This document shows positions 2,838-63,049 of a stretch of 64,000 nucleotides of DNA, piece after piece. The stretch comes from Domibacillus indicus (lineage in GTDB: Bacteria > Bacillota > Bacilli > Bacillales > Domibacillaceae), in NCBI RefSeq assembly GCF_000970685.1, contig NZ_LAJB01000002.1:186001-250000 (forward strand). Reading direction: 5' to 3'. The translations under genes and the position numbers were made by a program. How positions within the stretch are numbered: position 1 is the first letter of the stretch; every line of letters starts with the position of its first letter. The notes beneath the pieces were generated by a model. The model ran no database searches. It was not told where the DNA came from and saw only the letters and a list, made by a program, of their open reading frames with translations.

Positions 2838-4793
2838 ATGAGATGGACAATCCGAAAAAAGTTAATTCTTTCTTTTTTAGCGCTGCTGCTGATTCCATCC
2901 GGCCTGATTGGTTACTTATCCTATCAAAGCGCCAAAAACGAAATGGAAAAGCAGCTTATTGATTCTGCAGATGAAAGCGTGATGACACTGGATCGGCTGA
3001 TTACCGATAATGTTAACATGAAAACCCATGATGCCGGGGTTTATTCCGAGCTGGTATCGAAAAAAGACATTGCCGGGGAAGAAAGCCCCGCTTTGCGCCG
3101 CCGTCTTGACCAGTACGCAAAGCTTCATCCGGATGTGATCAGTATTTATGTTGGCACAACGGACGGAGTGATGATCCAGGAGCCCCGGCAGGAGCTTGAA
3201 CCCGGTTACGATCCGCGCGACCGGCCGTGGTACCAGGAAGCTGTTGATGCCGGCGGTGAAACGATTATTACCGAGCCCTACATCTCTTCTTCTGGCTCGG
3301 AAGTTGTCACAATTGCCCGGCAGACAGCAGATAAAGCCGGCGTGATCGGGATTAATTTAAAAATGGATGCCCTGCTGGAAATGGCTGGCCTTGTGAAAAT
3401 CGGCCGGGAAGGCTATCCGATTCTGCTCGATGGCCAGAAAAAATTTATCGTGCATCCGACAGAAGAATTTGGAACTGAGGCCGAAGACCCTCTTTATGAA
3501 GAAATGTATAAAAAAGAAAAAGGCATTTTTGATTATACGCTCAAAAATGAAAGCAAGATTATGGCTTATTCTACAAATGAAGCAACCGGCTGGAAAATTG
3601 GCGGTACGATGTATGCGAAAGAAATTACCGATGCGGTGCGTCCGATTTTGCTGAAAACCGTTGCAACGGTTCTGATCTCACTGCTGGCAGGCCTTCTGCT
3701 TGCCTGGACAATGGTCCGCTCGATTACCCGTCCGATTTTGTCCCTGCAGCAAAGCGCCGAGACGCTGAGCCAGGGAGATTTAACAAAGCCAATCGAGGTG
3801 GAGCGCCGCGATGAGATTGGCGATTTGTCGCGTGCTTTTGCAAACATGGCGCACAATTTGCGGGAATTGATCCTGCAGGTGGATCATAACACGGAACAGG
3901 TGGCCGCTGCTTCCGAGGAATTGACGGCTTCCTCTGATGAAACAACAGCTGCTACCGGCCATGTGGCGGATTCGATCCAGAAAGTCGCCGCCGGTGCTGA
4001 CGAGCAGACAAGCGCTCTTTCTTCCGTGCTTCATGAGATGGACGAGCTGCGTACAGGTGCCGGCACGATTGTCGACCGCACGGTTGATGTTTCCAAATCC
4101 GCCAATGAAACGATTTCACATGCATCAGAAGGAGCAGAATCGGTGCGCCGGACTGTTGCCCAGATGAATGAAATTCAAGAGCATGTCCATGCATCGGATC
4201 AAATGATTCAATCGTTAAGCGGGCGCTCGGCCGAAATCACATCTATCGTCGATGTGATCAGCTCGATTGCCGACCAGACCAACCTTCTTGCGCTCAATGC
4301 GGCCATTGAAGCGGCCCGTGCCGGCGAACACGGCAAAGGCTTTTCCGTGGTTGCCGGAGAAGTCCGGAAGCTTGCTGAACAGTCACAGGCATCCGCCGGG
4401 CAGATTGCCGGCTTAATTGCGGCTATCCAGCAGGACACCGAGCATTCCGTCCGGTTAATGAGCCAGGCAGCCAGAAGTGTGGAGACCGGCATTTCCTTGT
4501 CCGATGACATCTCCGAGAAATTTGGCGGCATTTTAAGCGGCATGCAGCAGATTGCCCCGCAAATCCAGGATGTGGCGTTTATTGCCGAGCAGGTGTCCGG
4601 CCGGGTGCAGCAGCTTTCCGTATCCCTTGAGGGTGTTGCCGGCATTGCCCAGGACAATTCATCAAGCGCTGAACAGGTCGCAGCTGCGACTGAAGAACAG
4701 CTTGCTTCCCTTGAAGAAGTAAATACCGCCGCAAGATCGCTTTCGGTCATGGCTGAAGAGCTGCAGCAGGTTGTCCGCAAATTTTCGGTGTAA
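2838..4793 (+). CDS. Methyl-accepting chemotaxis protein with extracellular Cache domain
   Basis: 651 aa, the layout of the Bacillus McpA/TlpA type: TM1 (~10-30), a double-Cache-like extracellular sensor (~36-265, with the RDRPWYQEA segment typical of Cache ligand pockets), TM2 (~269-292), HAMP (~293-347) and a long cytoplasmic signalling coiled coil. The hairpin tip that contacts CheA and CheW lies at ~474-516 (core [19 protein letters not shown]). It should transmit attractant or repellent binding to the flagellar motor. AAAGGAG precedes the ATG. The ligand is unknown; Cache pockets of this type often bind amino or organic acids. Confidence 0.95.
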
Positions 4794-4917
4794 CAAAAAG
4801 AAGTCCCTCTCGTCCCAAGCAGTTCCGATAACATTGGACAGTTATAAAGGAGCAGATAAAATAACACGCTGAAACACAGTGTGTACAGCACCATAAATAA
4901 CTGTACCAATAGCAAAC

Positions 4918-4951
4918 AAAAACGCCTGGAGGATACTTTCCAGGCGTTTTT
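4918..4951 (+). terminator. Rho-independent terminator of the chemoreceptor gene
   Basis: CGCCTGG (4923-4929) pairs with CCAGGCG (4940-4946), flanked by A-rich and T-rich runs. Confidence 0.85.
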
Positions 4952-5140
4952 GTTTTTATACTGTATTGTTATGCGAAAGTTCCCGTTAGCTTACATATAT
5001 TTCTTTATAAACTAATGACAAATTGAAATATAACCAGGCTTTTTTTCGAATAAATACCCACTTGTTTTATTCGACTCCTTAAAATCCTTTTTCAATTTTG
5101 ATTTGTAAGATAAAAATGTATATTGTTGCTGTAACCACAA

Positions 5141-5176
5141 TAGTGTATGACACATAGTATAAATCATATAGTGTAT
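5141..5176. promoter_or_regulatory. Repeated TAGTGTAT motifs upstream of padR, possible autoregulatory operator
   Basis: TAGTGTAT occurs at 5141-5148 and again at 5169-5176. A related GTGTATGA overlaps the start region at 5202-5209. The 28-bp spacing and position just before a PadR gene suggest PadR binding. This is inference. Confidence 0.35.
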
Positions 5177-5208
5177 TATATACAGTAATGTGTGAAACGA
5201 GGTGTATG

Positions 5209-5547
5209 ATGGGTACTTTATTGAATTCTTTAACAACAGAGCTTCGAAGGGGAACATTGACCCTGGCCGTGCTAAGTCAATTACGCACACCGCAATATGG
5301 ATATTCACTTGTGCAGCTGCTGGAAAATTCAAGTATTACAATTGATCAAAGCACCTTATATCCTCTTCTGCGCCGCTTGGAAAAGCAAGGACTCGTTACG
5401 AGCAGCTGGGACACATCCGAGGGAAGGCCGCGAAAGTATTATGTTTTAAGTGAATTTGGATTAGAGATTTTTACACAGCTAAAAGAAGAATGGCTAAAAA
5501 ATTCAAGAGAACTCTATGAGTTGTTAAAAGGAGAGGAAGATGAATGA
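5209..5547 (+). CDS. PadR family transcriptional regulator
   Basis: 112 aa from the ATG at 5209, chosen because CGAGG sits about 6 nt upstream; in-frame ATGs at 5188 and 5206 are poorer. The winged-helix signature is clear: YGYSLVQLLE, then STLYPLLRRLEKQGLV as recognition helix and GRPRKYYVLSEFG as wing, followed by a short C-terminal dimerisation helix. PadR proteins are mostly autoregulated repressors. The gene overlaps the next by 4 nt (ATGA), the usual PadR plus HAAS-membrane-protein pair. Confidence 0.92.
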   Translation: MGTLLNSLTTELRRGTLTLAVLSQLRTPQYGYSLVQLLENSSITIDQSTLYPLLRRLEKQGLVTSSWDTSEGRPRKYYVLSEFGLEIFTQLKEEWLKNSRELYELLKGEEDE

Positions 5548-6536
5548 ACCTGATTGATGTTTATATTCAGGAAGTCACTCGAAGACTCCCTGAAAAAAAC
5601 CGCGAAGATATTGCTCTTGAATTAAGATCAACTATTGAGGATATGCTGCCTGATCGTTATAGTGAACAAGACGTACAATCAGTTCTTCAAAAAATGGGGA
5701 ACCCTGTTTCACTTGCCAGCGGCTATCGGGATCAGCCAATGCATTTAATTGGCCCGCGTTATTTTGATGTATATGTTTCATTATTAAAAATGATTTTACC
5801 GATTGCAGCTGTCGTTGCTTTCATTTCGGTGATTGCCGAATATATAAGCGGGGTTAACGGTGAAGAAGCGATTATTAATGTAATTCTAGATATAATAGGA
5901 TTTGGAATTTGGAGAATCCTTGAGGTAGCGATTCAGACATTTTTCTGGCTTACAGTCGTTTTCGCCATTCTTGAACGAGTGGATAAAGACAAAGATAATC
6001 AGCCATTATCTACAGCCTTAACAAAATGGACACCTGACGATTTAAAAAACATCACGTATATTCCAAAGAAAAAAGCGATATCAAAATTCGAAGTTTTTTT
6101 CGGACTATTGTGGACTTCAATATGGGCTGCACTTTACTTCTATGCCAACCAGCTAATCGGTATATATGAAGGCGGAGAAGACGGGTTAACACTCGTTGCA
6201 CCGGTATTCAACCAGGAAATATTGCTTCAATACTGGCCGCTGGCTGCAGCTTTACTGGCATTTGAACTTGCACTAACCCTATATAAATTCATTAAAGGCC
6301 AATGGACGAAAAGGCTGGCCATCGTAAACGCAATATATGAATTAACCGCAACTGTAATTCTCTCAATTATTTTACTGACCCCCAACATCCTGACTCCAGA
6401 ATTTGCAGACTACAAAACAGGCTTTGAACATTTAGATACATGGCTTATTCCCATGGTAATCATTATCTTTGCTGTTTTTGCAGTGAGTAATGGAATTGAC
6501 GGTTTCCGCAAAGCCAGATCCACTGTAAAGTCATAA
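5544..6536 (+). CDS. HAAS-type membrane protein paired with PadR
   Basis: 330 aa. The N-terminal ~70 residues (DVYIQEVTRRLPEKNREDIA and following) form the small helical HAAS domain often found beside PadR regulators. About six hydrophobic segments follow (e.g. ~77-97, 115-145, 180-200, 230-255, 270-290, 300-320). HAAS proteins are thought to be signalling or regulatory partners of PadR; no enzymatic motif is visible. It is translationally coupled to padR. Codon use is A+T-richer than in the flanking genes. Confidence 0.75.
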   Translation: MNLIDVYIQEVTRRLPEKNREDIALELRSTIEDMLPDRYSEQDVQSVLQKMGNPVSLASGYRDQPMHLIGPRYFDVYVSLLKMILPIAAVVAFISVIAEYISGVNGEEAIINVILDIIGFGIWRILEVAIQTFFWLTVVFAILERVDKDKDNQPLSTALTKWTPDDLKNITYIPKKKAISKFEVFFGLLWTSIWAALYFYANQLIGIYEGGEDGLTLVAPVFNQEILLQYWPLAAALLAFELALTLYKFIKGQWTKRLAIVNAIYELTATVILSIILLTPNILTPEFADYKTGFEHLDTWLIPMVIIIFAVFAVSNGIDGFRKARSTVKS

Positions 6537-57798: not shown

Positions 57799-58230
57799 TT
57801 ATATAGAATGTATGTTTACATGGATCACTCCGACAAGAGCAGGAAACGAGCCGCATTCGGAAATCATTTCCTCTGCGGTCACCGCCCGCCCGTTCCGCTC
57901 CACCGCATAATCCGGACGGCAGCGCGCCACATAACCCGGCGGACCGCCGTGCTCACTGGCTTTTTGCAGCGCCTGTTCCTTTGAAGCCGCCGCAATCAGC
58001 AGCCAGAGCGTCCGGTTGGAGGTGACCGCATATACATGAACCGGACGAAAGCCGAGCGCGTTCCGGCTTTTCATTTCCCCGATGGCGTTATTGTCCATTT
58101 TCTCGAATGGAATGGCTTTTTCATCCGTTTTCCCGTCGACCACCCCGCGCCGCAGCAAATCGAGCAGCCCGTATACAAGCGTGTCGTCCTGCCGGCGGAA
58201 CGCTTCTTTAAACAGCGCTCTCACGTTCAT
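57799..58230 (-). CDS. Unrecognised protein, last gene of the replication operon
   Basis: 143 aa from the ATG at 58230 (TTG 58236 is an alternative at better spacing to GGAG). It overlaps the helicase gene. N-terminal helix VRALFKEAFRRQDDTLVYGLLDLLRRG; the centre (RPVHVYAVTSNRTLWLLIAAASKEQALQKA) is mixed alpha/beta. No motif found. Its position suggests an accessory replication or regulatory role. Confidence 0.7.
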   Translation of the reverse strand: MNVRALFKEAFRRQDDTLVYGLLDLLRRGVVDGKTDEKAIPFEKMDNNAIGEMKSRNALGFRPVHVYAVTSNRTLWLLIAAASKEQALQKASEHGGPPGYVARCRPDYAVERNGRAVTAEEMISECGSFPALVGVIHVNIHSI

Positions 58231-59461
58231 GATCAATCAGCACTCCGCTTTCTTTTACATAGGTGACCGTCACAAAGCCGGTCGGGCCGTTCCGGTTTTT
58301 CGCCACAATAATCTCCAGCCGTTCGTCTCCCGCTTCCTTCGTGTAGTACGCCTCCCGGTACAAAAACAGCATTACATCGGCATCCTGCTCCACCGATCCG
58401 GAGTCCCGCACATCCGAAAGCATCGGCCGCTTGTTCGCCCGCGTCTCTACCGCCCGCGACAGCTGGGCCAGGCAGATCACCGGGCAGGAAAAATCCTTTG
58501 CCAGTGCTTTTAAGCTGCGCGAAACGGCCGCCACCTGGGCCGCTGTATTCCCGTCGAAAAAATGCGGCGGCGTAATCAGCCCCAGGTAATCAATAAATAC
58601 GACCGGGCGCGCCTCCGGGTGGTCAAGCGAGAGCCGCCTGAGCGACGCGCGCATATCCGGCACCGTCACAGCAGGCTGGTCGGACACATACAGGCTGAGC
58701 CCGCTCACTTCGCGGATCACATGCGGCCAGTTTTTCCGGTTTGTTTCATCAAACAGCTTGTACGGATTGCGCAATTTCGCCCGGTTCAGCCGCCCCGCCG
58801 CCGCCAGAAGCCGCCTCGTCAGTGCGCCGGCGGACATTTCAATTGAAAAAATAACCGGCAGGCAGCCGCTTTCAGAAGCCATCCGCGCGAAATGAAGCAT
58901 CACATCCGTTTTCCCCATTGAAGGGCGGGCGGCGATAAAGGTGAGCTCGCCCTCCTGAAAGCCCCCGAGCGTTTCATCGAGCTTTTTGATGCCGGTAATG
59001 GGACGCTGCACTTCTTTTTCTTCCACAAACGGCGCTTGTTTTAGCGGCTCTACCAGCTCGGAGACCGGCTTTGCTTTTTGAATCGAGACGCTGCCGATAC
59101 GGGCCGCTTCCCCAATAATCCGGTCTGCCGGCCACTCCTCCGCCGATGCCTGAATGCACATCGACCGGACCGCCCGCTTCTGCCACTCCTCAATCAGCAG
59201 CGCTTCATAATGTGAAAACCGTTCGATATTTGCATGAGCGAGCAGGTCATTGATGTACGGCGCGCCGCCAAACGACTCAATCTGTCCGCCGACCGACAGC
59301 GTCACCACATCGACAATCCGCCCCGCGTCCGCCTCCGCCCGGATAAGAGAAAACAGCTCCCGGTGCAGCGCCGACCCGAAATAATCCGGCACAACCCGGG
59401 TATCAAGCGCCACGCGGCTGTCATGCAGGCAGGTGCCTAAAACGGCCATCTCGGCTTTCAT
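58208..59461 (-). CDS. DnaB-like replicative helicase
   Basis: 417 aa. Compact DnaB N-terminal domain (EMAVLGTCLHDSRVALDTRV, ~1-95), linker, and RecA-like DnaB-C domain with Walker A ARPSMGKT (178-185), Walker B VVFIDYLGLI (~288-297), AQLSRAVETR and RDSGSVEQDADVMLFLYRE. All helicase signatures are intact; about 30-40 aa shorter than chromosomal DnaB/DnaC. ATGA overlap with the DnaD-like gene. Phage and plasmid replication modules carry such helicases; this one would be loaded at an origin by the upstream protein. Confidence 0.92.
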   Translation of the reverse strand: MKAEMAVLGTCLHDSRVALDTRVVPDYFGSALHRELFSLIRAEADAGRIVDVVTLSVGGQIESFGGAPYINDLLAHANIERFSHYEALLIEEWQKRAVRSMCIQASAEEWPADRIIGEAARIGSVSIQKAKPVSELVEPLKQAPFVEEKEVQRPITGIKKLDETLGGFQEGELTFIAARPSMGKTDVMLHFARMASESGCLPVIFSIEMSAGALTRRLLAAAGRLNRAKLRNPYKLFDETNRKNWPHVIREVSGLSLYVSDQPAVTVPDMRASLRRLSLDHPEARPVVFIDYLGLITPPHFFDGNTAAQVAAVSRSLKALAKDFSCPVICLAQLSRAVETRANKRPMLSDVRDSGSVEQDADVMLFLYREAYYTKEAGDERLEIIVAKNRNGPTGFVTVTYVKESGVLIDHERESAV

Positions 59462-60231
59462 CCGATTCCCTCCCCGGCCGTAAGATCGAGTACAAGCGGC
59501 TCGTATAAAGGAACCTCCGCTGCTTTTTCCGGCTTGGGCCGCATGTCCTGAAGCGTGCTTTTTCCTTCTGCCTGCCAGCTTGTTAAAATCGACTGTGCGT
59601 ACGCGTAGGGCCTGTCCGCCTCACACGACAGCTTCAGCGCTTCGATCACCAGCTCTTCACTGAGCGAGGAGCACCACTCCAGCAGGCCCTGCTCCACAGC
59701 CGGCGCCGGGGTGCCGAACACTCTTTCAAAAAACCGCACCGCCGCCGGACGGCTCTCTGTTTTCTCCGGTTCCGTTTCGTTTTGTTTTTCTTTTCTTCCG
59801 TTTTGTTTTTGGTGCCGTTCCGTCCACGTATCGTATAAAGACCGGATGCGGCCCGGCGGAATATGCGCCGCCACAAACGAAACAAGCGACGCATCCTTTA
59901 CAAGAGACAATTCCTTTTCCACACAGTCCTCCACCGGCTTGCCGCCCCGGGTGAAATTGTAGCGGCCCCAGTGCCGGACCGCCATTTCCCCTGTATCCCT
60001 GTTAAAGCGGATCAGCCCGTTTTCCTCAAACCGCCTGAAATACTGCTCCACTTTTTTCGGCGGAATGCCCATATCAAACGCCGCCTTGCGGATATTCAAC
60101 GAATAAATGCCAATCTGCGTCGTCTGGCTGTTGGTCAGCACATACAAAAAACAAAGCTTCTCGGCCGCCGCCATATCCATCACCCTGTCATCGCTCCAGA
60201 AGTTCGCGTATACAAACCGGTACTTCGCCAT
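59458..60231 (-). CDS. DnaD-like replisome organiser/replication initiation protein
   Basis: 257 aa. N-terminal winged helix (~1-95: FVYANFWSDDRVMDMAAAEK, TTQIGIYSLNIRKAAFDMGI, RRFEENGLIRF) typical of Firmicutes phage replisome organisers. A basic/acidic linker (KQNGRKEKQNETEPEKTE) and a DnaD-domain-like C-terminal region (RFFERVFGTPAPAVEQGLLE, YAYAQSILTSW) follow. Such proteins bind an origin and help load a DnaB helicase, here encoded next with 4-nt overlap. Confidence 0.85.
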   Translation of the reverse strand: MAKYRFVYANFWSDDRVMDMAAAEKLCFLYVLTNSQTTQIGIYSLNIRKAAFDMGIPPKKVEQYFRRFEENGLIRFNRDTGEMAVRHWGRYNFTRGGKPVEDCVEKELSLVKDASLVSFVAAHIPPGRIRSLYDTWTERHQKQNGRKEKQNETEPEKTESRPAAVRFFERVFGTPAPAVEQGLLEWCSSLSEELVIEALKLSCEADRPYAYAQSILTSWQAEGKSTLQDMRPKPEKAAEVPLYEPLVLDLTAGEGIG

Positions 60232-60405
60232 TTACCAGCCCTCCTCCTGGCGGCCGATCCACTCCGACAGCGTTTCCTGCGTAAAAAAAATCCGACGCCC
60301 GACCCGGTAGTGCGGCACCGTCCCTTCCTGCACGTACCGATACAGAGTCCCCGGATACACGCCCAAAAACACCGCTGCCTGCTTAATCGTCATTCTTGTT
60401 CTCAT
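60232..60405 (-). CDS. Small HTH (excisionase/MerR-like) DNA-binding protein
   Basis: 57 aa from the ATG at 60405 (GAGAGGAAAG upstream). MTIKQAAVFLGVYPGTLYRY with VQEGTVPHYRVGRRIFFTQE is the HTH_17 excisionase-type fold (winged helix of the MerR class). Stop and next ATG are adjacent. As first gene after a phased decamer array (60484-60613) it is a good candidate to bind that array. Confidence 0.85.
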   Translation of the reverse strand: MRTRMTIKQAAVFLGVYPGTLYRYVQEGTVPHYRVGRRIFFTQETLSEWIGRQEEGW

Positions 60406-60483
60406 TTTCTTTCCTCTCCTTTCCCTTTCTATATACGCACCTGTTGAAAAAATCGATACTAAAAACAAAAAAGAAACACGGGC

Positions 60484-60613
60484 GGCGCGATTTGGGAACC
60501 CTCTGGCGTGTTTTTCCCCGGCTGCGGCGCAATTACCCGAAAGGATGGCGCGTTTTAAGAAAAAATGCGCCGTCCTGATATGAAATCGCGCCGGCACAGC
60601 ACAAAAACGCGCC
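60484..60613. repeat. Phased iteron-like array, 4 direct + 3 inverted decamers at 21-bp steps
   Basis: Direct: GGCGCGATTT 60484, GGCGTGTTTT 60505, GGCGCAATTA 60526, GGCGCGTTTT 60547. Inverted: AAAATGCGCC 60562, AAATCGCGCC 60583, AAAACGCGCC 60604. Every step within an arm is exactly 21 bp, about two helical turns. Spacer sequences between units are unrelated, so the decamers are under selection. Located directly upstream of the HTH-DnaD-DnaB operon. Confidence 0.9.
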
Positions 60614-60656
60614 GATGAAGTCTTTCCAGCCGAGCACCCCGCTTCAGCTGTATTCA

Positions 60657-60686
60657 TTGACATATCTAAAAACATCGATATATAAT
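60657..60686 (+). promoter_or_regulatory. arsR promoter with overlapping ArsR operator
   Basis: TTGACA, 18-nt spacer, TATAAT (60681-60686). The spacer carries ATATCTA-N6-TCGATAT (60662-60681). Predicted transcription start coincides with the ATG at 60694, so the mRNA would be leaderless. Confidence 0.8.
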
Positions 60687-60693
60687 GTGAACC

Positions 60694-61008
60694 ATGAAAC
60701 CAATCGATATATTTAAGGCGTTATCCAATGAAACCCGGCTTAATATTTTGCAGTGGCTGAAGGAACCGGAGAAGCACTTTCCAAAACAGGGCGCTCACCT
60801 GCCGAAGGAGGTCAGTATCAAAGGGGGAGTGTGTGTAGGAGATATTCAGGAAAAAGCGAATGCTTCTCAGTCTACCGTTTCCCACTACCTGAATATGATG
60901 CAAAAAGCGGGTCTGCTTGAATCCGTCCGTTATGGGCAGTGGACCTACTACAGGCGAAACGAAGAAGTGATTCGCCAGATGGCTGACTTCTTTAAAACAG
61001 AAATCTAA
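60694..61008 (+). CDS. ArsR family transcriptional repressor
   Basis: 104 aa. IDIFKALSNETRLNILQWL, then GVCVGDIQEKANASQSTVSHYLNMMQKAGLLESVRYGQWTYYRR is the ArsR winged helix (recognition helix ~45-62). No CxC metal site in the helix; only one Cys. No RBS precedes the ATG, consistent with a leaderless message from the strong promoter. It controls, by matching operators, itself and the downstream YdcZ pair. Confidence 0.92.
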   Translation: MKPIDIFKALSNETRLNILQWLKEPEKHFPKQGAHLPKEVSIKGGVCVGDIQEKANASQSTVSHYLNMMQKAGLLESVRYGQWTYYRRNEEVIRQMADFFKTEI

Positions 61009-61030
61009 GCGGGCTGATTTCTGTTTTTTT
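60995..61030 (+). terminator. Rho-independent terminator of arsR
   Basis: AAACAGAAATC (60995-61005) pairs with GATTTCTGTTT (61016-61026), then T4; it overlaps the stop codon. Confidence 0.85.
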
Positions 61031-61040
61031 ACCGCCTTTT

Positions 61041-61060
61041 ATATCGATTATTCTAGATAT
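61041..61060. promoter_or_regulatory. ArsR operator upstream of the YdcZ genes
   Basis: ATATCGATTATTCTAGATAT, whose reverse complement has the ATATCTA-N6-TCGATAT form of the site at 60662-60681. Confidence 0.75.
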
Positions 61061-61094
61061 TTAATTATAAGGATAGTAAGGAGAGCTTTATCTT

Positions 61095-61523
61095 ATGCGT
61101 TATATTGCTTATATACTGGCGCTGCTCGCAGGGTCGGCACTTAGCTTTGAAGGAGCGATCTACGGAGAGCTGGGAAAAACAATCGGCCAGCTTGAAACGA
61201 GTTTTTATAACTTCTTTGTGGGCTCCATCATCATGGGCTTGTTATGGGTGTTCTTCGGAAAAGGGAAGCTTTCCTATACGGTGGAAGCACCGAAATGGTC
61301 CATCCTCGGGGGCCTGCTCGGGGTTGTGTATTTAACCTCGATCGTGATCAGCGTTCCATTTGTCGGGGTCGGAATTACGATGGTTGCGGTTATTATCGGC
61401 CAGCTGGTTATGAGTATGGTCATTGAACATTACGGCTGGCTCGGCAGCAAAAAAACGAGAATCAATAAAGAAAAAGTATTCGCTGTTATTTCCATGATTA
61501 TTGCACTTGTTTTAATAAACTAG
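61095..61523 (+). CDS. YdcZ-like DMT family transporter (DUF606), subunit 1
   Basis: 142 aa with five hydrophobic helices. SALSFEGAIYGELGKTIGQLETSFYNFFVG and GVVYLTSIVISVPFVGVGITMVAVIIGQL are DUF606/YdcZ features; the half-size DMT proteins act as dimers. Paired with a second YdcZ gene 11 nt downstream, suggesting a heterodimer in antiparallel topology. Under ArsR control. Substrate unknown. AAGGAGAG before the ATG. Confidence 0.88.
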   Translation: MRYIAYILALLAGSALSFEGAIYGELGKTIGQLETSFYNFFVGSIIMGLLWVFFGKGKLSYTVEAPKWSILGGLLGVVYLTSIVISVPFVGVGITMVAVIIGQLVMSMVIEHYGWLGSKKTRINKEKVFAVISMIIALVLIN

Positions 61524-61534
61524 GAGGTCCGGAC

Positions 61535-61996
61535 ATGAGTATCGTCATGATTTTATTCACCTTATTGGGAGGTATTACCTTAAGCGCCCAGTCGTCGATC
61601 AATGGAGCGTTCAGCCGAAAAGCCGGAACCATTGAAACGACCTTTTTAACGTTTATCACTGGAACCCTGTTTCTTGCCCTTTTTATTCTGTTTTTTGGCC
61701 AGGGAAACGTGCTTGGAATACTGGAAGCACCGAAATGGCAGTTAAGTGCCGCTTTTTTAGGTACGATGTATTTGCTTCTCACCGTAATGGCTGTTCCACG
61801 AATCGGGGTCATCGCGGCGAATATTGCCGGCATTATCGGCCAGCTGGTTATCGGCTTGCTGATTGATCATTTTGGCTGGTTCGGCAGTTTAGTTATCCCT
61901 TTAGATGCAAAACGCTCGTTTGCCCTGTTGTTTATGGTGATCGCTCTTTATTTTATCTACAAAGGAAACAAACGCTCCAGCGAAGAACCTTCGTAA
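61535..61996 (+). CDS. YdcZ-like DMT family transporter (DUF606), subunit 2
   Basis: 153 aa, five hydrophobic helices. It is homologous to the gene before it: TLSAQSSINGAFSRKAGTIE and GTMYLLLTVMAVPRIGVIAANIAGIIGQL align with the partner, including the IGQLV(I/M) and DHFGW/EHYGW ends. Pairing of paralogous half-transporters is typical of DMT heterodimers. TAGGAGG before the ATG. Confidence 0.88.
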   Translation: MSIVMILFTLLGGITLSAQSSINGAFSRKAGTIETTFLTFITGTLFLALFILFFGQGNVLGILEAPKWQLSAAFLGTMYLLLTVMAVPRIGVIAANIAGIIGQLVIGLLIDHFGWFGSLVIPLDAKRSFALLFMVIALYFIYKGNKRSSEEPS

Positions 61997-62004
61997 ATAA
62001 TAGA

Positions 62005-62045
62005 AAACACTGCAGCCGGGCTAAAACCGGCTGCAGTGTTTTTTT
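62005..62045. terminator. Bidirectional Rho-independent terminator
   Basis: AACACTGCAGCCGG pairs with CCGGCTGCAGTGTT around a 6-nt loop, T-run after. Between convergent operons. Confidence 0.9.
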
Positions 62046-62080
62046 ATTCCTTTTAAAAAAGCAGTGCTCTTCCTGCCCTT

Positions 62081-63049
62081 CTACATTGTAATGACAATTT
62101 TCCCCCGGGCGTGCCCTTCCGCAAAATACGTGAATGCCTCCCTCACTTCCTCGAGCCCAAACTGCCTGTCGAGAACCGGCTTTACTTTCCCGGCTTCAAT
62201 CAGGTCTTTTATCAAAAGAAGATCGTCCTGATTCGCCCGCTGCAGCAGGCTGCCGACTTTCTTTTTTTTCGTCAGCGAAATCCACGGCCCGAGCATCATC
62301 GCCTGCGCCATCTGGGCACCCGACCCGCCGATATGAACGAAGGTTCCGTTCGGGCGCAGGGCACGCTCATACGCCGAAATCGGCTGGTGCCCGTTTACGC
62401 CGGCAATTAAATCATACTGCTCCTGCCTTTCGGTAAAATTCTCTTTTTTGTAGTCAATCGCATGATCCGCCCCGATTGATCGCAATGTATCAATATTTCT
62501 CGTACTGCACACACCCGTTACCTCGGCCCCGAACGCTCTGGCAATCTGAACGGCAAAAGTGCCCACGCCTCCCGAGGCTCCGTAAATCAATACGCTTTGC
62601 CCTTCCTTGATCCCGCCTTTATTCCGCAGGCCCTGCAAGGCGGTCACAGCCGCCATCGGGACCGCGGCCGCTTCTTCAAATGAAAGATTGGAAGGCTTTT
62701 TCACCAGGGCCGTCTCCGGAACACAGGCATACTCCGCAAAGCCGCCCCAGCCCGAGCCGGACAGATCCCCAAACACCTCGTCGCCCGGCGCAAACTGTGT
62801 TACTTCTTTTCCGACCGCTTCCACCCGGCCGGCGATGTCCCCGCCCGGCACCGGATACTTTGGCCGGCGGAGGCCGAACGCAAAGCGGGCCGCAAACGGC
62901 TCTCCTTTTAACAGCACCAGATTGCCGTAATTAACCGAGGCGGCCTCCACCTTCACCAGCACCTGGCTGCCGTCCGGAACCGGCTTTTCCACCTCTTTTA
63001 CCTCCAGAACATCAGGCGGGCCGTACTTCGTATACACGATCGCTTTCAT
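62081..63049 (-). CDS. NAD(P)-dependent MDR oxidoreductase (quinone oxidoreductase-like)
   Basis: 322 aa from the ATG at 63049 (GGAGAGGAG ~8 nt upstream). GroES-like N-domain (PGGDIAGRVEAVGKEV) and Rossmann domain with the dinucleotide motif YGASGGVGTFAVQ. No structural zinc Cys cluster and no catalytic Cys/His zinc ligands, so it belongs to the zinc-independent quinone/enone reductase branch. Detoxification of quinones is plausible. Stand-alone. Confidence 0.9.
   Translation of the reverse strand: MKAIVYTKYGPPDVLEVKEVEKPVPDGSQVLVKVEAASVNYGNLVLLKGEPFAARFAFGLRRPKYPVPGGDIAGRVEAVGKEVTQFAPGDEVFGDLSGSGWGGFAEYACVPETALVKKPSNLSFEEAAAVPMAAVTALQGLRNKGGIKEGQSVLIYGASGGVGTFAVQIARAFGAEVTGVCSTRNIDTLRSIGADHAIDYKKENFTERQEQYDLIAGVNGHQPISAYERALRPNGTFVHIGGSGAQMAQAMMLGPWISLTKKKKVGSLLQRANQDDLLLIKDLIEAGKVKPVLDRQFGLEEVREAFTYFAEGHARGKIVITM

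Follow-up and report, generated by a model that had tools for sequence, protein, structure and literature searches.

Plasmid iterons are direct repeats that lie about two helical turns apart. Repeats of constant size, either 20-21 nt or 52 nt, were described in Bacillus genomes by Subirana and Messeguer in 2021 (PMC8161180), and an earlier account by the same authors, from 2019, dealt with the constant-size tandem repeats of Bacillus (PMC6749651). In the available portions of this work the repeats are called enigmatic, and a protein requiring the constant size is proposed with none named (PMC8161180). Dispersed repeats with a cognate enzyme are represented by the REPIN-RAYT systems. According to the accessible part of the 2011 report by Bertels and Rainey on P. 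fluorescens SBW25, this genome has three REPIN types, each clustered beside its own RAYT gene, every RAYT that was examined there is flanked by REPs, and co-evolution of the two was proposed (PMC3116915).

Here we analyze an array of short phased units in a stretch of 64,000 nucleotides from Domibacillus indicus, referred to below as the window. The window's own genome is denoted G000, and other G numbers stand for related genomes. The features of the array and its surroundings are listed in Table 1.

Table 1. Units of the phased array, neighboring features of the window, and the NERD gene of the same genome
Feature	Position	Strand	Remarks
Left-arm unit L4	60484..60493	+	GGCGCGATTT, exact match to GGCGCG(A/T)TTT
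Left-arm unit L3	60505..60514	+	GGCGTGTTTT, one mismatch to the decamer
Left-arm unit L2	60526..60535	+	GGCGCAATTA, two mismatches to the decamer
Dyad core, 25 bp	60547..60571	.	units L1 and R1, 5-bp gap, axis 60559
Right-arm unit R2	60583..60592	-	GGCGCGATTT, exact decamer
Right-arm unit R3	60604..60613	-	GGCGCGTTTT, exact decamer
TTGACA-18-TATAAT	60657..60686	+	perfect match; precedes the ArsR gene and is not part of the array
ArsR-family regulator	60694..61008	+	neighbor, outside the array system
57-aa HTH_17 protein	60232..60405	-	neighbor
DnaD-like (DnaB_2) protein	59458..60231	-	neighbor
DnaB-like helicase	58208..59461	-	neighbor
Lineage-specific stretch	60459..62088	.	array, ArsR gene and two YdcZ-like ORFs; ~111 bp in relative G012
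NERD gene	G000:C23:495374-496303		arrays of the window motif on both sides

A preliminary description of this DNA had reported seven sites, four direct and three inverted, with 21-bp steps within each arm and a dyad near 60559. Its coordinates and geometry proved correct: the steps are 21, 21 and 21 bp in the left arm, 15 bp across the dyad, and 21 and 21 bp in the right arm. The form GGCGCG(A/T)TTT that it gave for all seven sites is exact in four of them (60484, 60547, which is unit L1, 60583 and 60604), while the sites at 60505 and 60562 (unit R1, GGCGCATTTT) deviate at one position and that at 60526 at two. In 30 Markov-1 sequences of window length, the largest linked cluster comprised five units and arose once, and clusters of six or seven units never arose. 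The A+T-rich block said to adjoin the array is seen by eye at about 60421-60483, and Pfam matches agree with the earlier naming of the minus-strand neighbors as an HTH (HTH_17), a DnaD-like (DnaB_2) and a DnaB-like (DnaB_C) protein. A search of window positions 60200-60800 against Rfam gave nothing near a gathering score (best 23 bits vs 76). In blastn comparison with G012 (blocks L034:314-2960 and 4589-5563 against L093, where L034 position + 57499 equals window position), homology stops at window position 60459, with 25 bp left to the array, and sets in again at 62088. The array is therefore placed at the edge of lineage-specific DNA.

The preliminary description interpreted the array in front of the HTH-DnaD-DnaB operon as an iteron origin or a cooperative operator, for which the operon's own HTH or DnaD-like protein would be the binding partner. 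The location directly upstream of the operon and the 21-bp phasing are consistent with this interpretation. That description had also named related genomes with the same operon and no array as the result that would speak against it, and such genomes were found. The operon is orthologous in G010, G008, G005 and G012, with DnaB-like proteins 75-77% identical, and no array is present at the operon loci of these four relatives, so the array is not kept beside an initiator operon, as that of an iteron origin would be. Furthermore, eleven arrays of this kind are dispersed across the genome, and nine of the ten outside the window lie on a different contig from all three DnaB-like matches of G000 or more than 50 kb away from them. 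Because the operons of the relatives have no array and these nine arrays are distant from any DnaB-like match, the tie to the replication operon is unsupported. The exception is the array on contig C30 (~525.6 kb), at a distance of only 3.7 kb to a DnaB-like gene with 36% identity. It lies at the end of an apparent integrated element, and between array and gene lie ORFs that we take to be integrase-like and small HTH-like. With the C30 array as a caveat, which raises the chances of an origin or operator very slightly, we rejected this function for the array at the HTH-DnaD-DnaB operon and consider it hardly credible. The element on C30 (L095 3081-8225, ~520.6-525.7 kb) carries, next to the DnaB-like gene, an ORF that presumably encodes a replication-protein-like product. 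In G002, the operon that occupies window positions 58208-60405 is represented by a remnant of the DnaB-like gene.

A two-unit pattern search in G000 returned about a dozen clusters and scattered weak matches. Eleven clusters are arrays, ten of them in addition to that of the window, with 71 units altogether. Their arms have two to four units, except for one array with a single left unit. The steps are 21 bp in 43 cases and 20 bp in 6; since units were linked at any step of 20-22 bp, it is the proportion of 21-bp steps alone that carries information. The start-to-start distance across the dyad is 15 bp in 11 of 11 arrays. The consensus of the 71 units is YGGCGCRWTW with invariant G2, C3 and T8 (T8 in 71/71), and the spacers carry low information. 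The proposal that the sites lie on one face of the DNA is supported, as an inference, by the 43 of 49 genome-wide steps of exactly 21 bp and by outer mirrored units that do not co-vary as paired strands would. On the scale of the order, the GGCGC word had a match in 18 of 397 genomes. More than one match was seen only in G000 (24), G027 (12) and G001 (4), and single matches in G002, G004 and 13 others, five of which were inspected (G032, G093, G135, G283 and G343); single matches of a reversed control pattern were about as common as these. In G027, which belongs to another family of the order, we observed 21-bp direct arrays of GGCGCGATTTCGACAA with conserved spacers and higher-order repeats of ~104 bp (L058, L065 and L108). 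Palindromic arrays of the ACGGCGTATTTTT type with 21-bp steps and a build similar to that of the window array were also seen in Treponema MAGs (L047-L051).

How do these arrays compare with the described systems? Unlike plasmid iterons, they are dispersed over the chromosome and no initiator gene is tied to them. The claim that the window array had no described match must be revised in part, since constant 20-21-nt repeats have been published for Bacillus; it stands insofar as none of the papers listed by searches of the open-access literature was seen to assign a protein to them. In the available text, the Bacillus repeats are alike in having a 20-21-nt period, a species-specific sequence and a short conserved signal (PMC8161180), as well as several families per genome and mostly non-coding locations. 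Our arrays likewise have a 20-21-nt step and a species-specific sequence with a conserved short signal. The 21-nt signal TCGCGG published for B. weihaiensis sits within the consensus ...TTCGCGGATAT... of the NERD-gene flanks in G086 and G119 (NERD genes are introduced below), judging from the portion of the source at hand (PMC8161180). In contrast, inverted arms with a fixed dyad, both present in the G000 arrays, are not described in those portions. The window array might escape the tandem-repeat program of those authors because its spacers are poorly conserved. Among the described systems, REPIN-RAYT offers the nearest working model. Like REPINs as covered in the accessible text (PMC3116915), the arrays are dispersed extragenic inverted repeats that cluster beside a putative cognate gene, and they contain an inverted pair able to form a hairpin. 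They differ from REPINs, which in the text seen have one REP per arm, in having several phased units per arm, and no RAYT gene is adjacent. RAYT is a tyrosine transposase, whereas the enzyme here is, according to Pfam, a NERD-domain protein. A text search of PMC6749651 and PMC8161180 gave no mention of a nuclease or of NERD, and among the papers listed from the open-access literature, covered by titles, abstracts and term counts, none evidently connects NERD proteins with repeats or a cognate DNA array. The repeats as such are known; the novelty lies in the NERD-array pairing, for which homology points to no known system.

The arrays are gained and lost between species. The GGCGC arrays downstream of two genes that we take to be BaiN-like and metA-like are each present in one of 13 genomes of the genus. 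Behind a gatB-like gene, the longer array occurs in G000 only, and G008, G010, G005 and G012 have the 25-bp core alone, which with its hairpin and T run looks by eye like an ordinary terminator. These lone cores (L145, L148, L149 and L150) could represent a stage in the birth or decay of arrays. The array that G006 carries at the BaiN site is built alike but uses a different word, RGCCGRWTT; in G002 (L133), a different palindromic-looking insertion is seen 3' of the BaiN-like gene where G000 has its array. A motif-blind detector, which required an inverted core and two or more further units outward of it at 20-22 bp, found 9 arrays in 482 kb of loci, which had partly been chosen for their arrays, vs none in five Markov-2 shuffles, and 0, 1, 0, 0 and 0 arrays at five other step sizes. 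In G006 the RGCCGRWTT word recurs at a 21-bp step, with one mismatch allowed, 150 times vs 19 for the reversed pattern, and the array copies share spacers (14 of 37 fetched loci could be oriented by the rule used and were aligned). Both the excess and the common spacers mark this word as an amplified element.

Two of the G000 arrays, 1.1 kb apart, enclose a single gene encoding a NERD-domain protein (Table 1), and the same gene is also enclosed by arrays in G010 and G001. The G000 protein matches the NERD domain PF08378 with E 3.6e-20, as did four of four further proteins tested. It carries a Zn-ribbon pattern (CxxC-CxxC) and a C-terminal segment that looks helix-turn-helix-like from its sequence, in which Pfam reported no HTH family. 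Among 54 NERD proteins, the residues E41 (53/54), D75, E/D88 and K90 (each 54/54) are kept, which correspond to the D...(E/D)xK arrangement of a PD-(D/E)xK-like residue set. A sequence search of PDB with the NERD profile found no significant relative, the best match (E 0.079) being a ribosomal protein over the Zn-ribbon part. Assignment to a defense system was considered and rejected: PADLOC yielded PglW (E 0.0063) and MkoA (0.0061), and NCBIfam MADS6 matched over the NERD part only, with at best 34 bits vs a cut-off of 460.

NERD homologues were detected in 10 of 13 genus genomes (E<=1e-5), and 13 of the 17 places are full-length. Arrays flank these genes on both sides in 11/13 cases and on any side in 12/13, G009 having none by this count and at most a weak downstream array by eye. 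For 39 control genes the respective numbers were 0 and 6, and three of those six were loci picked for an array. The words read by eye in the NERD flanks are GGCGCAATT (G000a, G010 and G001a), GGCCGGAA (G006a, G011, G005 and the G012 fragment), GGGCGGTA (G000b), GGGGCGGAA (G002), CGCCGGTAT (G001b), GACCGGTAA (G001c), TTGCAC-CT (G001d) and AACGTGACC (G006b); the arrays of G001d and G006b are direct-only, with no inverted arm. The G010 gene adjoins a 6-phosphogluconate dehydrogenase gene (Pfam), and several other NERD genes follow DNA that by eye encodes the same C-terminal peptide. The same slot can therefore carry different words. On contig C7 of G001, the 80 kb from 92 to 172 kb contain a cluster of four full-length NERD genes, each with a word of its own, together with a NERD fragment. 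Broken NERD genes were seen in G004 (L248) and G012 (L249/L253), and GGCCGG-type arrays persist downstream of the latter.

A profile of 13 NERD proteins, for which seven candidates per genome were scored, has matches at E<=1e-25 in at least 223 of 299 genomes of the order. NERD genes and phased arrays are paired far beyond the genus: altogether, a 20-21-bp array flanks 46 of 65 NERD genes vs 9 of 246 control genes, where the NERD loci were the best-scoring among the matches listed and not a random sample. Of the 25 NERD genes in the first set, all from outside the genus, 19 have four or more units chained at 20-21 bp within 450 bp (counted from the table; the best step had to include 20-21 bp), and shuffled flanks gave a chain at any step in 2 of 150 cases. 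In the second set of 40 loci, such a chain is found within 600 bp of 27 genes, and one gene has a chain at another step (19 bp) only. Among the 246 other genes, taken from 20 of the same genomes, 9 have a 20-21-bp chain and 6 a chain at other steps (27/40 vs 9/246, Fisher p 1.3e-20). A scan of steps from 12 to 60 at NERD genes peaks at 20-21. The remaining 19 of 65 NERD genes (6/25 and 13/40) have no qualifying array; either arrays are really missing there or they lie beneath the detector's reach. At L333 (G093) and L330 (G208) we observed repeat chains whose steps measure 52 bp, which is the second constant size reported for Bacillus.

For 54 NERD genes with at least four units, we compared the similarity of array words with the identity of different protein segments (residue numbers of G010). 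Word similarity correlates best with residues 250-306 (r 0.217, with 0 of 500 permutations as high), followed by the whole protein (0.103, 10/500), residues 150-215 (0.062, 41/500), residues 1-150 (0.061, 52/500) and the Zn-ribbon part (0.041, 81/500). In partial Mantel tests, the C-terminal segment retains its correlation given residues 1-215 (0.211, 0/1000), whereas residues 1-215 given the C-terminal segment have none (-0.042, 827/1000). A sliding window peaks at the C terminus (0.152 and 0.197), with a smaller rise of 0.11 at residues 31-70. The Mantel correlations are small and the sequences related, but such a contrast between segments of one and the same protein speaks against common descent as the only cause. 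The array word tracks the C-terminal segment of the NERD protein, and not residues 1-215.

The dispersed arrays were compared with NERD-flank words of at least three units, as against at least four in the correlation above. Among 71 words, the dispersed G000 units score best with the three of GGCGC type (10.3, 10.1 and, for their own, 9.0; next 5.7). The G011 units have their own word first (11.1), and the G006 units match GGCCGG-type words with their own third (8.2), although the G006 flank word GGCCGRAAW and the dispersed RGCCGRWTT have only the first six letters closely in common. Of the two dispersed types in G001, one ranks its own word first (9.2) and the other third (6.8, a score shared with one more word and exceeded by 7.4). 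We also placed 45 stretches of 20 kb (900 kb) arbitrarily at round coordinates, and these contained 15 arrays at 20-21 bp vs 0, 0, 1 and 1 when four other pairs of steps were used. Fourteen of these arrays are in genomes with a sampled NERD word, and the own-genome word was the best of 64 in 7 of 14. Five of the seven own-word scores are 10.4-12.7 and two, 6.5 and 7.1, fall under the point of 7.7 below which 99.9% of foreign comparisons lie. Six of the NERD loci (G250, G125 and G016) were added after arrays of these genomes had given no first-rank match, after which 4 of 5 ranked first. The seven arrays that do not match a sampled own-genome word are from G208 (three), G068 (two), G259 (one) and G125 (one), and several of these genomes have further NERD paralogues outside the sample. 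G208 has a single NERD match at E<=1e-25 among the matches listed, and this one was sampled; the three unmatched arrays of this genome indicate that the explanation is not complete. In addition, G007 (77% complete) has GGCGC arrays and no NERD match, and in G002 a GGCGC array of three units stands at the end of a contig, yet the NERD word of this genome is GGGGCGGAAA.

We estimate the probability at roughly 0.7 that the window array is a dispersed copy of a lineage-specific phased binding array whose cognate NERD protein is encoded elsewhere, in a REPIN-RAYT-like system with an unrelated enzyme. A possible, though rather less probable, alternative is that the arrays serve regulation or scaffolding only: arrays flanking the NERD gene would mediate its autoregulation, and the dispersed ones would be a regulon, decoys or a nucleoid scaffold, with no mobility. 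This alternative is compatible with the NERD-array pairing itself, and both the two-sided arrays in 11 of 13 genus cases and the distance left between the upstream array and the start codon in the flanks examined agree with it. However, arrays also occur 3' of the stop codon, and the gains at single sites and the many G006 copies with common spacers look like spread. As for a neutral repeat of constant size that shares a hot spot with NERD genes, constant-size repeats of many sequences are indeed known in Bacillus from the text available (PMC8161180), but an association in many genera and on both flanks, with a word that tracks the protein C terminus, makes this very improbable.

The arrays could also act at the level of RNA, as a bidirectional terminator or 3'-end hairpin whose phasing is a by-product. 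By our reading of unannotated ORFs, seven of the eleven arrays lie between convergent ORFs, three between co-directional ones and one, that of the window, between divergent ones. The folds predicted for the RNA are strong (z -3.7, -3.2, -2.0, -7.4 and -6.2), and the core arms co-vary (positions 6-10, 0.80 vs 0.62 shuffled, p 0.0002), with a weak mirroring of the spacer bases beside the inner unit (0.526 vs 0.418, p 0.009). The convergent setting, the folds, the core and the terminator-like lone core behind the gatB-like gene in four relatives all favor such an element. It is nevertheless unlikely, as the outer unit pairs do not co-vary (0.60 vs 0.62, p 0.74), direct-only arrays also keep the 20-21-bp step, the word follows a protein segment, and the window array itself is situated between divergent genes.

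Under the preferred reading, a phased array with a cognate NERD protein, this protein would bind, cut and mobilize the arrays. Its C-terminal segment would recognize a word at every second helical turn, and the protomers in both arms would line up towards the dyad on the same DNA face. The inverted units of the core may fold into a hairpin or cruciform, on which the candidate nuclease domain could act, and the NERD part, with E41, D75, E/D88 and K90, would cut or resolve array DNA. Array copies would spread and be kept by the enzyme. Arrays come and go between species, reach high copy in some, and change their word together with the protein. As with REPIN and RAYT, dispersed non-coding repeats would be kept by one cognate enzyme gene seated among the copies. 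Autoregulation and a nucleoid role may exist alongside this mechanism, as they are not exclusive with it. On a broader level, and with somewhat less assurance, we regard as probable a hitherto undescribed two-part element of Bacillales-type genomes, in which a NERD-type nuclease with a changeable C-terminal reading segment is combined with dispersed arrays of words two turns apart. Its spread and persistence would be REPIN-RAYT-like, with an unrelated enzyme, each paralogue would have its own word, and the element would explain many of the 20-21-nt repeats of Bacillus.

For the enigmatic repeats, our analysis offers a candidate protein family, a candidate reading segment made up of approximately the 55 C-terminal residues, and dozens of word-protein pairs provided by nature, 54 of which entered the comparison. 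Should the NERD protein bind as we infer, these pairs would document, as a natural data set, how DNA specificity changes within a single fold, and the way of life of REPIN-RAYT would have been arrived at a second time, independently.
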